This document shows positions 36,294 to 41,078 of a stretch of 64,000 bases of DNA, one piece after another (position 1 is the first letter of the stretch; each line of letters opens with the position of its first letter). The position numbers and the translations under genes were made by a program. The notes beneath the pieces were generated by a model that was not told the origin of the DNA, ran no database searches, and saw only the letters and a program-made list of their open reading frames with translations. The DNA is from a bacterium (lineage in GTDB: Bacteria; UBA10199; JAIBAG01): NCBI GenBank assembly GCA_019695305.1, contig JAIBAG010000004.1:1-64000 (forward strand), written 5' to 3'.

Positions 36294-38918
36294 ATGATGA
36301 GAAAAATATCCATTTTAGGGTTTTTCTTTTTTCTTTATTCTACATTGTTACATGCAGCGCCTCTTACCGAACGCTTGCCAGCAAGTGAAGGGGCTCCTTT
36401 AAGCGTTTTTAATACACAAATCTCAAAACTTATAGTTCCTCTTACCGGTGATTTTGCGAATCGCTATATTATAGGCTCATCTGGCAAACAAATTACTATT
36501 ATTGATACCGAAACCTGGAGCGAAATTAGCGAACAGCCTGCTGAGTTTGATGAGAATATTGAAAGTATTACGCTTTTGGGGGATGGTAATACACTTTTAG
36601 TCACGTTAGGTGATGGTAATTTAGCACAGGTGCTTTTAGATGATATTGAAAACGAAAATGACGATGTGGAGGCTGCTTCCGATGATGATGCCGATACTAT
36701 TACCGATCCACGCGTTATTGAAATATCAAGTCTTTTGCAAAGTTCTAATATTAGTAAAGTTGTTGCCGATGTCGATTCTGCCGATAGCGTGGTGTATTTT
36801 ATCGATTCCAGTTCGGGCTTTTTGTATTCATACGATATTGATGAAGAGGAATTGTTATCATTTGAGCTCGTTTCCGATATTGATATTACCGATTCTTTCA
36901 CCCCTAACGATTTAATATTTACCGATGGTAGTGGCGGTCAAAAAGTTTTTGTTGCTGCACAAGATGGCAAGGTGTTGGTTCTTGATGCTGGGGGCAGTAC
37001 GGTAAGAATACTTGATGTACCAGTTACCGATGACGACGATGATACGGAGCCAGACTTAACAACTTTAGCGGCTACTCCCGATGGTGATTTTGTATACATA
37101 CTTGATAATACTAACGATGCTATTTGGGTATTAGACACTTCATCCGAAGAATTTGTGGATCAACTGACTGGTGGAGAAACTGTTGATCCCATTCGTTTTG
37201 AAAGCGACGAAAATTCCACATTAAGCGATTTATGGGTAGCTGATGTTTTAAATCCTACTTCTACTTATCTTTTTATTTCTGGTGTTGATGGCATTTCGGT
37301 TGTGGATGCTTCTGTTCCCGATTCTATTTCAGGGGTTTTTCCCATTGTTGATATGGATGATGCTACGGCCGATGTTTTTGATCCTATATCTCTTGATAGT
37401 TTGCCTGGAGCTTTAGTTGCTTCAAGTGACACCGACGGTTATTTATATTCGTCTAACGGCGACGCCACTCTTTCGATTATTTCCGATAATCCATTTGTAA
37501 CTATAGACGACGCTAGCCCTATTACGGTTACCGAAGCTGAACCTACATTTACTCTTACTTTTCAAACCGATGAAACGGGAACCTACGATGTAAAGGTTAA
37601 TTCTGATATTACGTCAAGTTCGGGTACTGTGTTGCTTGAAGATCAAAGTGCTGATACAGCCGATAGCGATTTAACTACCTCAACAATTGATATTAGCCTT
37701 TTTGATCGTGCTGTTTTTGAAGAGGGTACAAATAGAGTGTTTATTTTTGTGACTGATGGTGATGGGAATGTTGGCCGAGATGCGGTGGATATTACGGTAG
37801 ATCGTCCTCCCGGAGAAGTAACCATTACCGGTACCAGTTTTGGTAATCACAAGGTTTATGTAAGCTTTACCGCCCTTACCGATAACGATATTAGTGTTTA
37901 TACTTTGTATGCCAAAGAAGCCGAGTCACAGACCGATCCTAGCTGCCCGGGTACTCTGGATTTTACCACAGCACCGGATGGTACCGGAACCGTAAGTGGT
38001 AGTTGCAGCGGCAGTTGTGAAGGCACAATTAGCGGGCTGACTAACAATGTGTATTATTGTGTGGCCATGGACGCTACCGATAACAGTTCGCAAACGGGAG
38101 TTCTTTCTACCTTTAGCGAAGCTGCCCGTCCCGAACTAACGGTTGGAGCAGCCGGGTTGTTGGGAGAAACAGGATGTTCTTTAAATGAAGGGAAACCCAA
38201 GGTTTCATATTCATTTTTTGCAATGCTTTTTGTTTGGATAACATTATTATTAACAAATAGAGCAAAAAAAATAGCGTTTATTGTTCTGTTTTTTCTTTTA
38301 TCTTCTACAGTGAACGCTCAGGAAATTTCTAAAGATATCGAAATTGCAAAGCCCGAAAAAAAATATTTTAGTTTTGAGCTTAAAGGTGCGCTTACTTTTC
38401 CTAGCAATGAAGTGGTTAAAGATATTTATGGAAACTGCTGTAATTTTAGCGGCGAGGTAGAGTTTGGGTATTTGTATAAATCTAAACTCAATATTACTGT
38501 TGCTGCGGGTGCTGGCTATTTATCGGGTACGGCTGTAGGGGCTACCACCGGTACGCCATCTGGCGATTCGGCGGGACTGTTACTTATTCCTATCCGAAAC
38601 AATATCATTTTTCGCTTCGATTTTATGAAAGATCAAATTGTAGTTCCCTATGTAGGAGTTGGTGGTGATTATGTGATTTTTAGAGAGAGTGTAGCCGGTG
38701 ATTCTATTAAGGGAGTTAAAGTAGGTTTTCACGGTTTAGGCGGTGTTGCGGTGCTGCTCAACAAGTTTGAAGATATAGGCTCCGATTTACGCGATAGCGG
38801 CATTGACGACATGTATCTTACCTTTGAGGGGCGCTATAACAAAATTGATAGTTTTAAATCAACAGGTTTAGATCTTTCGGGTTTTGCCGTATACATTGGC
38901 TTTCTCATGACTTTCTAA
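36294..38918 (+). CDS. surface protein: beta-propeller/Ig region fused to a beta-barrel domain
   Basis: An 874-residue protein with a signal peptide (about 5-21). Residues 40-400 are propeller-like repeats with Asp-rich inserts. Residues 400-610 look like Ig/fibronectin strands. Cys628 is followed by one hydrophobic helix (639-654) and NRAKK, like a C-terminal sorting tail. Then comes a second signal-peptide-like segment (about 660-675, ending NAQ) and an outer-membrane beta-barrel-like domain ending in FLMTF. The layout suggests two genes joined in one frame. An ATG at 38223 could start the second part. Function unknown. Confidence 0.75.
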   Translation: MMRKISILGFFFFLYSTLLHAAPLTERLPASEGAPLSVFNTQISKLIVPLTGDFANRYIIGSSGKQITIIDTETWSEISEQPAEFDENIESITLLGDGNTLLVTLGDGNLAQVLLDDIENENDDVEAASDDDADTITDPRVIEISSLLQSSNISKVVADVDSADSVVYFIDSSSGFLYSYDIDEEELLSFELVSDIDITDSFTPNDLIFTDGSGGQKVFVAAQDGKVLVLDAGGSTVRILDVPVTDDDDDTEPDLTTLAATPDGDFVYILDNTNDAIWVLDTSSEEFVDQLTGGETVDPIRFESDENSTLSDLWVADVLNPTSTYLFISGVDGISVVDASVPDSISGVFPIVDMDDATADVFDPISLDSLPGALVASSDTDGYLYSSNGDATLSIISDNPFVTIDDASPITVTEAEPTFTLTFQTDETGTYDVKVNSDITSSSGTVLLEDQSADTADSDLTTSTIDISLFDRAVFEEGTNRVFIFVTDGDGNVGRDAVDITVDRPPGEVTITGTSFGNHKVYVSFTALTDNDISVYTLYAKEAESQTDPSCPGTLDFTTAPDGTGTVSGSCSGSCEGTISGLTNNVYYCVAMDATDNSSQTGVLSTFSEAARPELTVGAAGLLGETGCSLNEGKPKVSYSFFAMLFVWITLLLTNRAKKIAFIVLFFLLSSTVNAQEISKDIEIAKPEKKYFSFELKGALTFPSNEVVKDIYGNCCNFSGEVEFGYLYKSKLNITVAAGAGYLSGTAVGATTGTPSGDSAGLLLIPIRNNIIFRFDFMKDQIVVPYVGVGGDYVIFRESVAGDSIKGVKVGFHGLGGVAVLLNKFEDIGSDLRDSGIDDMYLTFEGRYNKIDSFKSTGLDLSGFAVYIGFLMTF

Positions 38919-39727
38919 TGCGCATTCAAATTACCTTACAATATAAAGGAACAAACTACATTGGCTGGCAAACGCAAAATGTGGCGGTGAGTGTTCAGCA
39001 GGTTTTGGAAAAAACACTTGGTAAAATTTTAAATCAAAAAATCCATGTGGCAGGCAGTGGGCGCACCGATAGCGGGGTGCATGCTTTTTGGCAAACGGCC
39101 CATTTTGATTTGCCGGACGATTGTAAAATTCCCCTCCATAAAATTCACCATGGGCTTACGTCATTACTTCCGCCCGATATTGGCATTATTAGTCTTAAAC
39201 AAGTAAATGAAAAATTTCATGCGCAGTTTGATGTAAAAAAGAAAACATATCGTTATTTAATTTTTAATTCGTGGATTCCCAGCCCTTTTTTAGACGACAT
39301 GGCCTGGCGCATTCCATATGCGCTCGACGTGGCCAAAATGAAAAAGGCCGCTGCCATGCTCAAAGGTGAACATGATTTTAGTGCTTTTTGTGCGGCCGAT
39401 AGCACAGCTAAAAGCAAGGTGAGGCGCATTTTTTCGGTAACAATTAAAACACAAAAAGATTTTTTATTTTTTCATTTTGAACGGATCAAAAAGCAAAAAA
39501 TAGATTATTTAAAAAACAAACCCTGCCAATTGATTGTTATGGATGTGTGCGGAAAAGGATTTTTAAAACAAATGGTGCGCACCATTGCGGGGAGTTTAGT
39601 GGATGTCGGAAAAGGGAAAATGACTTTGATTGAATTTAAAGCCTTGCTTAAACACGGAGACCGCAAAAAAGCCGGCCGTACGGCACCTGCCAAGGGGTTG
39701 GGAGTGATGGGAGTTGGGTATAGATGA
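38918..39727 (+). CDS. truA: tRNA pseudouridine synthase A
   Basis: A 269-residue enzyme forming pseudouridine at positions 38-40 of tRNA anticodon arms. The catalytic Asp51 is in GSGRTDSGVHA, and KTYRYLI and FLKQMVRTI are conserved. Its ATG shares one base with the preceding stop (TAATG). The last 54 coding bases recur in diverged form at 40983-41036 beyond the next gene. This suggests that a segment inserted at the end of this gene. Confidence 0.95.
   Translation: MRIQITLQYKGTNYIGWQTQNVAVSVQQVLEKTLGKILNQKIHVAGSGRTDSGVHAFWQTAHFDLPDDCKIPLHKIHHGLTSLLPPDIGIISLKQVNEKFHAQFDVKKKTYRYLIFNSWIPSPFLDDMAWRIPYALDVAKMKKAAAMLKGEHDFSAFCAADSTAKSKVRRIFSVTIKTQKDFLFFHFERIKKQKIDYLKNKPCQLIVMDVCGKGFLKQMVRTIAGSLVDVGKGKMTLIEFKALLKHGDRKKAGRTAPAKGLGVMGVGYR
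39668..39721. repeat. 3' end of truA, copy within the gene
   Basis: These 54 bases encode the C-terminal KAGRTAPAKGLGVMGVGY of TruA and match 40983-41036 at 44 of 54 positions. Most differences are in third codon positions or are otherwise silent, as between truA genes of related species. Confidence 0.85.
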
Positions 39728-39748
39728 ATATGGCGGCTATTTAAAAGT

Positions 39749-39776
39749 TTGACTTTTAATTGACCGGACTTATAAA
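39749..39776 (+). promoter_or_regulatory. sigma-70-type promoter of the ATPase gene
   Basis: TTGACT (39749-39754) and TATAAA (39771-39776) are spaced by 16 bp in the AT-rich gap after truA. The predicted start lies about 14 bp before the original ATG of the ATPase gene at 39797. Confidence 0.5.
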
Positions 39777-39796
39777 ATAGTGCAATATTATCAAGT

Positions 39797-39862
39797 ATGT
39801 ATAAAAGAGATATTACATAGTATATCGAAAAAAACAGTGGTAATTACCCAGTTTTAACGGTT
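39797..39862 (+). other. interrupted 5' end of the ATPase gene
   Basis: From ATG 39797 the frame reads MYKRDIT, then TAG at 39818-39820, then YIEKNSGNYPVLTV, which joins the downstream frame directly. The stretch matches the usual start of DUF4143-type ATPases, so the TAG is an internal nonsense codon at position 8. Only one base change from a sense codon is needed. Confidence 0.8.
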
Positions 39863-40984
39863 GTGGGGCCTCGGCAGTCGGGCAAATCTACCTTGGTTCG
39901 TCACCTGTTTCCTGCTTATCAATACGTTTCTCTCGAAACTCCCGATGATCGTAGATTAGCCTTGGAAGACCCCCGTGGTTTTTTTAGCCGCTATTCAGGT
40001 TCTCTTATTATTGATGAAGTGCAACGTGTTCCCGATCTTTTATCGTATATCCAAACATTTGTGGATGAGCCGGGTTTTAAAGATCATTATGTGTTAACGG
40101 GTTCTCATCAGTTATTGCTCATGGAAAAAATCACGCAGTCGCTCGCCGGCCGCACTCTTATTGTAAAGCTTTTGCCTTTTTCCAGTCACGAAATTAGCGA
40201 AGGAAATGAAAGTAAAAAATCCATCGATGAGAGGATGTATGAAGGCGGTTATCCGCGTATTTTTGACAAACATCTTTCCCCTCAGCAATGGCTGGAAGGG
40301 TATTATCAAACCTATGTTGAAAGAGATGTACGAGAGCTGATTAAAATTGATCAGCTCACTTTGTTTGAGCGATTCATGTCTCTTTGTTCGGCCAGGGTTG
40401 GTCAATTGATTAATTACTCGTCGCTCGCAACCGATGTGGGTGTATCGGCTCCCACTGTTAAATCGTGGCTATCGATGATGGAAGCTGGTTTTATTTGTTT
40501 TTCACTTGCCCCCTACTATAAAAACCTCGGAAAACGAGTGGTGAAATCTCCAAAACTTTATTTTTATGACACTGGCCTGTTGTGTTATATGCTAAAAATT
40601 CGTACTCCGCAAGATTTGGTCAGTCACGCATTGCGCGGTTTTATTTATGAAAATTGGGTGATTGTGGAAGTGATGAAAAATTATTTTAACAGAGGATTTT
40701 CTTCCCCCATTTATTTTTGGCGCGATGTTCATGGCCATGAAGTAGATTTAATTATTGATAAGGGAGAAAACTTGTACCCGATTGAAATCAAGTCCTCTCA
40801 AACCATGCATTCCAGTTTTTTTAAGGATCTGGAATATTTTGACGGACTAAAAAATCAAAAAGTTACCGGAATAAAAGGGACTTGTATGTATGGTGGGCTC
40901 GATTCGTATGAATATAAAAGTTTTAAATTATGTTCGTGGAATGAATTCAAAAAGAAAATTCCAGATTTGGGAACAGAATTATAA
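39863..40984 (+). CDS. DUF4143-type AAA ATPase, N-terminus lost to a nonsense codon
   Basis: The open frame (373 residues from GTG 39863) begins just at the Walker A motif GPRQSGKST. Walker B is in SLIIDEVQRVPD, and TGSHQLLLM and AGRT follow. The C-terminal DUF4143 region (LYFYDTGLLCYML, FIYENWVIVEV, GHEVDLII...PIEIKSS) has a nuclease-like look. The true start at 39797 is cut off by TAG at codon 8. Starting at 39863 loses the strand before the P-loop, so the product is probably inactive unless TAG is suppressed. The family is widespread and patchily distributed; its role is unclear. Flanked by two truA 3' ends. Confidence 0.8.
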   Translation: MGPRQSGKSTLVRHLFPAYQYVSLETPDDRRLALEDPRGFFSRYSGSLIIDEVQRVPDLLSYIQTFVDEPGFKDHYVLTGSHQLLLMEKITQSLAGRTLIVKLLPFSSHEISEGNESKKSIDERMYEGGYPRIFDKHLSPQQWLEGYYQTYVERDVRELIKIDQLTLFERFMSLCSARVGQLINYSSLATDVGVSAPTVKSWLSMMEAGFICFSLAPYYKNLGKRVVKSPKLYFYDTGLLCYMLKIRTPQDLVSHALRGFIYENWVIVEVMKNYFNRGFSSPIYFWRDVHGHEVDLIIDKGENLYPIEIKSSQTMHSSFFKDLEYFDGLKNQKVTGIKGTCMYGGLDSYEYKSFKLCSWNEFKKKIPDLGTEL

Positions 40985-41036
40985 AGCCGGCCGCACCGCC
41001 CCCGCCAAGTGGCTGGGGGTGGTGCGGGTTGGGTAT
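40983..41036 (+). repeat. second, diverged copy of the truA 3' end
   Basis: The frame reads KAGRTAPAKWLGVVRVGY then TAA, against KAGRTAPAKGLGVMGVGY in TruA. It has 44 of 54 bases in common and is richer in G and C. It begins within the stop region of the ATPase gene. It marks the right edge of the segment that carries the ATPase. Confidence 0.85.
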
Positions 41037-41078
41037 TAATTATGTTAATTACTTTTACTTATTTTTCATTATCCATTT

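Follow-up and report, generated by a model that had tools for sequence, protein, structure and literature searches.

The window, i.e. the whole stretch of 64,000 nucleotides that was analysed, contains an intact truA gene followed by the gene of an ATPase, and the end of truA recurs beyond the ATPase gene. The following features were assigned to the locus.

38918 to 39727, plus strand: truA (tRNA pseudouridine synthase A), the intact host gene (ORF list; Pfam PF01416, E 2e-38).
39668 to 39721, plus strand: truA tail copy 1, functional, KAGRTAPAKGLGVMGVGY followed by R and the stop (repeat comparison; same-order relatives).
39741 to 39759, no strand: inverted repeat TTAAAAGTTTGACTTTTAA upstream of the ATPase gene, a feature characteristic of the family but weak in this copy, with 8-nt arms and a score of 8.
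39797 to 40984, plus strand: AAA_14-DUF4143 ATPase (PADLOC PDC-S01) with a predicted C-terminal PD-(D/E)XK nuclease (ORF list, Pfam, PADLOC HMM, AF2, Foldseek).
40739 to 40792, plus strand: nuclease-like motif E-x-D ... E-x-K (E307, D309, E322 and K324, numbered in the translation from 39821).
40983 to 41036, plus strand: truA tail copy 2, orphan, KAGRTAPAKWLGVVRVGY followed by TAA, beginning within the ATPase stop codon.

The tail copies at 39668-39721 and 40983-41036 lie in direct orientation and are identical at 44 of 54 nucleotides; seven of the ten differences are synonymous. The tail-pair pattern gave two matches in the window and none in 100 shuffles, and in the 2.78-Mb genome it was found at these two places only. 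Copy 2 has its own TAA (41037-41039) directly after its last base. In copy 1, one further codon (AGA) precedes the truA stop TGA at 39725-39727. The original prediction had described a recurrence of the truA end past the ATPase gene at 44 of 54 positions with mostly silent differences, and a second copy richer in GC; both statements held. Its description of copy 1 as the last 54 coding bases of truA was only partly correct, as the AGA codon still follows. GC content at third codon positions rose from 0.38 for the truA body to 0.53 for the upstream tail and 0.79 for the downstream tail.

The ten discordant sites were compared with relatives from the same order, of which G002 and G004 were the most informative for distinguishing the native from the foreign tail. 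G002 sided with the upstream copy at 7:0 sites and G004 at 5:0, and three other relatives were neutral. Both this agreement and the GC3 contrast point to the GC-rich downstream tail as the probable import and to the upstream tail as the probable resident copy, although few sites underlie this assignment. The source genome is the only member of its family, and the nearest truA is 57-59% identical. No Rfam family and no tRNA were found at the truA-ATPase locus.

The ATPase of the window contains the Pfam domains PF13173 (AAA_14, E 4e-25) and PF13635 (DUF4143, E 1e-50), and no LAGLIDADG or GIY-YIG domain was reported by Pfam. It matches the PADLOC PDC-S01 model PDLC04790 with an E-value of 3e-94. 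The frame homologous to the relatives runs from ATG 39797 and is interrupted at codon 8 by an in-frame TAG (39818-39820) that the relatives do not have; the longest ORF starts at GTG 39863 and lacks the N-terminus. Because of this TAG the copy is probably decaying, being inactive or shortened, or it restarts at GTG 39863. Inspection of the ORF list between 35 and 46 kb revealed no recognisable tyrosine or serine integrase.

About 11 DUF4143-type ATPases are encoded in the genome of the window (G000, 2.8 Mb) and 43 in G004, a member of the same order. A second ATPase of the window's genome, 50% identical to the first, is located at a contig end (L034, G000:C52). Tail copies of a minus-strand gene, reading TIDEWMK and stop, lie on both of its sides, with a GC-rich tandem repeat beyond them, and the host gene itself is off the contig.

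Across 46 aligned relatives, E277, E307, D309 and K324 were invariant and E322 was nearly so, being replaced by T in the ATPase of locus L045. The C-terminal part of the ATPase thereby meets the pattern of the PD-(D/E)XK superfamily (E ... D ... E-x-K). An AF2 model of the ATPase was obtained with a pLDDT of 91.5. Foldseek searches with this model retrieved AAA+ DNA motors (RuvB, Orc/Cdc6) and Can2-type nucleases at modest TM-scores, the match to whole solved structures was weak (TM about 0.2-0.4), and a sequence search of the PDB returned no convincing full-length relative. The protein is therefore predicted, on the basis of a model, to combine an AAA+ ATPase with a PD-(D/E)XK-type nuclease; it is not known to have nuclease activity or to transpose.

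PDC-S01 is a single-gene defence candidate of PADLOC (AAA_14-DUF4143, COG1373) without experimental validation. The published description is that of an ATPase joined to a PD-(D/E)-X-K member, and with ~29,500 bacterial and ~10,000 archaeal copies the family is reported to rank fourth in frequency among 'defences' of prokaryotes; for most PDCs no validation is reported and it remains pending (PMC12988326). A description of mobility or tail duplication for DUF4143 proteins was not found in the open-access literature searched, which did not cover subscription papers and preprints.

Empty and filled sites were compared within one species on complete plasmids carrying the Thermus pxpA gene. The site is empty in T. 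thermophilus HB8, HB27 and TTHNAR1, where a CRISPR repeat begins no more than about 5 nt after pxpA. Strains JL-18, SG0.5JP17-16 and SNM6-6 carry an insert of about 1.33 kb, which contains the ATPase gene alone and starts 5-8 nt past the pxpA stop. Neither a tail copy nor a target duplication was found at this insertion. Near-identical T. thermophilus ATPases occur in different contexts and share a right end that lies about 46 nt beyond the ATPase stop. In Moraxella bovis, a segment common to two plasmids and 96% identical ends in the ATPase stop codon, and at the pyc end of A. tumefaciens, homology between filled and unfilled sites resumes about 19 nt beyond the ATPase stop. In these Thermus, Moraxella and Agrobacterium cases, the right edge of the element is located at the ATPase stop or within about 46 nt of it. 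These sequences show that the ATPase family forms a stand-alone, gene-sized mobile unit at gene ends. The within-species empty site was thus obtained for a Thermus member of the family, not for truA itself.

Duplicated tails were also found at other host genes. In L045 (genome G019), the ATPase is 59% identical to that of the window, and the tail of an upstream Zn-ADH gene is repeated 7 nt past the ATPase stop; the two copies are identical at 38 of 42 positions, every difference is silent, and an extra gene lies beside the ATPase between them. Further host genes with duplicated tails were ald (L161), NFU (L154), SMC (L160), PDH-E2 (L110), an epimerase (L237), HpnH (L219) and the host gene of L188. 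Four of these cases, Zn-ADH, ald, NFU and SMC, are present in G019. A rhomboid-like gene (L078) is accompanied by three successive tail copies, and the orphan tail of a TPR gene (L168) is frameshifted. The duplicated tails are about 20 to 180 nt long and correspond to the end of a neighbouring gene that is itself intact, reaching its stop codon or nearly so; this gene either precedes the ATPase gene on the same strand or follows it in convergent orientation (L110 and L154). The copy on the 3' side usually begins between -20 and +40 nt relative to the ATPase stop. In a comparison of native and foreign tails, informative sites were too few for ADH and NFU, and the result for ald was mixed.

The ADH gap that holds the ATPase element in G019 is occupied in G044 by a PIN-type toxin and its antitoxin, located between ADH and the pyruvate dehydrogenase alpha gene (L284, G044:C77, 761-1449, minus strand). 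A second ADH tail was not found in this gap of G044.

For a survey of the family, 229 ATPases were sampled from the class of the window and by a contig scan across many phyla. Flanking repeats were searched without gaps at a score of at least 18, and control ORFs were drawn from the same loci. Flanking direct repeats were detected at 26 of 229 ATPases versus 5 of 459 control genes (Fisher p=4e-9). One of the five repeat-positive controls is an antisense frame of an ATPase, so the figure for the controls is more likely too high than too low. Repeats thus flank about 11% of the sampled ATPases, and clear coding tails about 5%; at least ten of the repeats are diverged copies of the last codons of the host gene. 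An inverted repeat before the start (score of at least 10) was present at 48% of 230 ATPases versus 4% of 473 control genes; it might represent an operator or an element end.

Not all repeats were tails. Those at L238, L118 and L151 are non-coding, and L112, L137, L109, L145 and L151 were rejected as tail cases since their repeats look simple or interspersed. L074 was rejected and left out of the pooled test described below, as a tandem paralogue of the host gene carries the same tail. At L090 and L097 the repeats proved to be palindromes rather than gene tails; nearly the same palindrome of 36-41 nt is present at both ends of the ATPase genes, where it possibly marks element ends. No flanking repeats were found at the plasmid loci L293, L295, L298-L301, L303 and L305. 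Most copies lack a recognisable tail, for which age is the probable reason; a mode of insertion other than tail duplication, as at Thermus pxpA, is also possible.

Ten tail pairs were pooled for an analysis of their divergence, which yielded 38.8 synonymous changes at 118.5 sites and 20.2 nonsynonymous changes at 412.5 sites. The resulting pN/pS of 0.15 was compared with 0.5, the value expected under identical duplication and neutral drift of the orphan (p=4e-6). DNA similarity was the criterion for choosing the pairs, they were trimmed by eye, and L078 alone accounts for a quarter of the changes, so the exact p calls for caution. In L045 and L154 all differences are silent. From the low pN/pS it follows that the two tails of a pair diverged as functional coding tails, which supports tail import.

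Taken together, the segment between 39.7 and 41.04 kb is likely to be a single-gene mobile element of gene 3' ends that lacks an integrase. In the mechanism proposed here, the element would consist of an inverted-repeat or promoter region and one gene, the ATPase-nuclease (DUF4143, PDC-S01). Elements of the family would occupy the 3' end of a host gene, frequently a core gene, and leave it unbroken, and many insertions are bounded by two diverged versions of its last 20-180 nt, one of which keeps the gene whole while the other is orphaned on the far side. As the gene body always retains one intact tail, the host gene would not be harmed by the insertion. The ATPase-nuclease may cut or mark the empty gene end; by analogy with the homing of fungal mitochondrial mobile ORFs, homologous DNA entering from a related genome would then serve in repair or recombination, and the ATPase gene would be copied in together with one tail. 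At truA, a foreign truA tail would have travelled with the ATPase gene, probably as the GC-rich downstream copy. Homing driven by the ATPase-nuclease through cutting of the empty gene end is an inference, no nuclease activity being known. According to a bolder reading, PDC-S01 as a whole is a selfish, integrase-less single-gene element which homes to gene 3' ends, many of them in core genes, and spares the host gene by supplying it with a replacement tail that is either carried along or captured; we would give this reading no better than an even chance.

The original prediction had suggested that, on its arrival, the segment brought along the truA 3' end of a related genome. This is supported by the recurrence of the pattern at other host genes and by the coding-constrained divergence, and the statement that no integrase is visible also held. 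The treatment of the arrangement as an oddity of one gene was too narrow, since it is a property of the ATPase family.

Three other explanations were considered. The ATPase could be a defence gene (PDC-S01) or other cargo that is not self-mobilising and owes its position at gene ends to machinery supplied in trans or, following DNA uptake, to homology-assisted illegitimate recombination; the duplicated tail would then be a trace of this route. This remains possible. PADLOC lists the family as a single-gene defence candidate, published surveys place it with the most frequent candidates, and the toxin-antitoxin pair in the ADH gap of G044 and the extra gene in L045 indicate that gene ends accept other cargo. 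However, the ATPase stop codon marks the edge of the element in unrelated hosts, no integrase accompanies the gene, minimal units contain the ATPase alone, and the repeats are missing beside random genes. Alternatively, the tail copy could be a long target-site duplication formed at insertion, with later decay of the orphan. The direct orientation of the copies on either side of the gene fits this view, but it is very unlikely in the light of the pooled pN/pS, the purely silent differences in L045 and L154, the variable tail lengths and the absence of a duplication at the Thermus pxpA site. Nor was the short, constant and identical target-site duplication typical of transposons and IS elements met, as the tails are variable and diverged.

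As the genome is a draft of 58 contigs, the second tail might be ascribed to an ancient local truA duplication or to an assembly error. Against this, unrelated genes in many genomes show the same arrangement, and complete plasmids also contain the mobile unit. The duplicated part comprises merely 54 nt and ends at a stop codon, and truA was found at no other DUF4143 locus surveyed; an old truA duplication was ruled out on these grounds, and the explanation as a whole can be virtually excluded. A mobile element of gene ends, probably bringing its own tail, is therefore preferred over the three alternatives.

The closest anatomical parallel to such an element is provided by the mobile ORFs of fungal mitochondria, which are found in atp6, atp9, cox2 and nad3 of Glomus and in atp6 of Allomyces (PMC3630166). 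In both arrangements, a host gene completed by one tail is followed by a nuclease ORF (predicted in the case of the ATPase) and then, downstream, by a diverged second C-terminal copy; the differences between the copies are largely silent, and one tail is foreign. The truA locus meets the criterion for a mobile ORF, namely a host gene kept whole by one tail and a second, diverged tail beyond the nuclease gene. The fungal ORFs, however, encode LAGLIDADG or GIY-YIG enzymes in mitochondria, whereas the present element encodes an AAA+ ATPase with a PD-(D/E)XK-type domain and resides on bacterial chromosomes and plasmids. Moreover, the functional fungal tail is the foreign one and the native tail is displaced downstream, whereas at truA the orphan looks foreign.

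Integrative elements which restore the 3' end of their target gene, such as e14 in icd and islands integrating into tRNA genes, insert at that end and are accompanied by a diverged copy of it. The ATPase element shares these two traits, but it has no integrase in or beside it, measures only about 1.3 kb and is flanked by tails of varying length. PD-(D/E)XK proteins are a recognised family of homing endonucleases (PMC6083498). Like free-standing homing endonucleases, the element consists of a single (predicted) nuclease gene, but it differs from them by its AAA+ motor and the upstream inverted repeat.

If PDC-S01 is a mobile element of gene ends, selfish mobility would account for its abundance and patchy distribution. 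Counts of defence systems would then have to be revised, core genes would receive foreign C-termini, and the family would be a bacterial counterpart of the tail-swapping mobile ORFs of mitochondria that uses a different enzyme.

Three further loci were recorded during the survey. In L190 (G004:C9, 2788-2798), a tRNA-Leu gene converges on the ATPase gene, and 9 nt separate its 3' end from the ATPase stop codon; a copy of the tRNA tail was not found on the other side of the ATPase gene. In L302, on a plasmid of Agrobacterium pusense, a DUF4143 ATPase is flanked by tRNA T-arm-like fragments (GGTTCGATTCC...TTCAAG, 24 of 30 positions identical) about 300 nt upstream and 58-88 nt downstream. Two tandem DUF4143 ATPases are located in L123 (5277-6489), each with a repeat after its stop, as if two insertions had occurred at one site.
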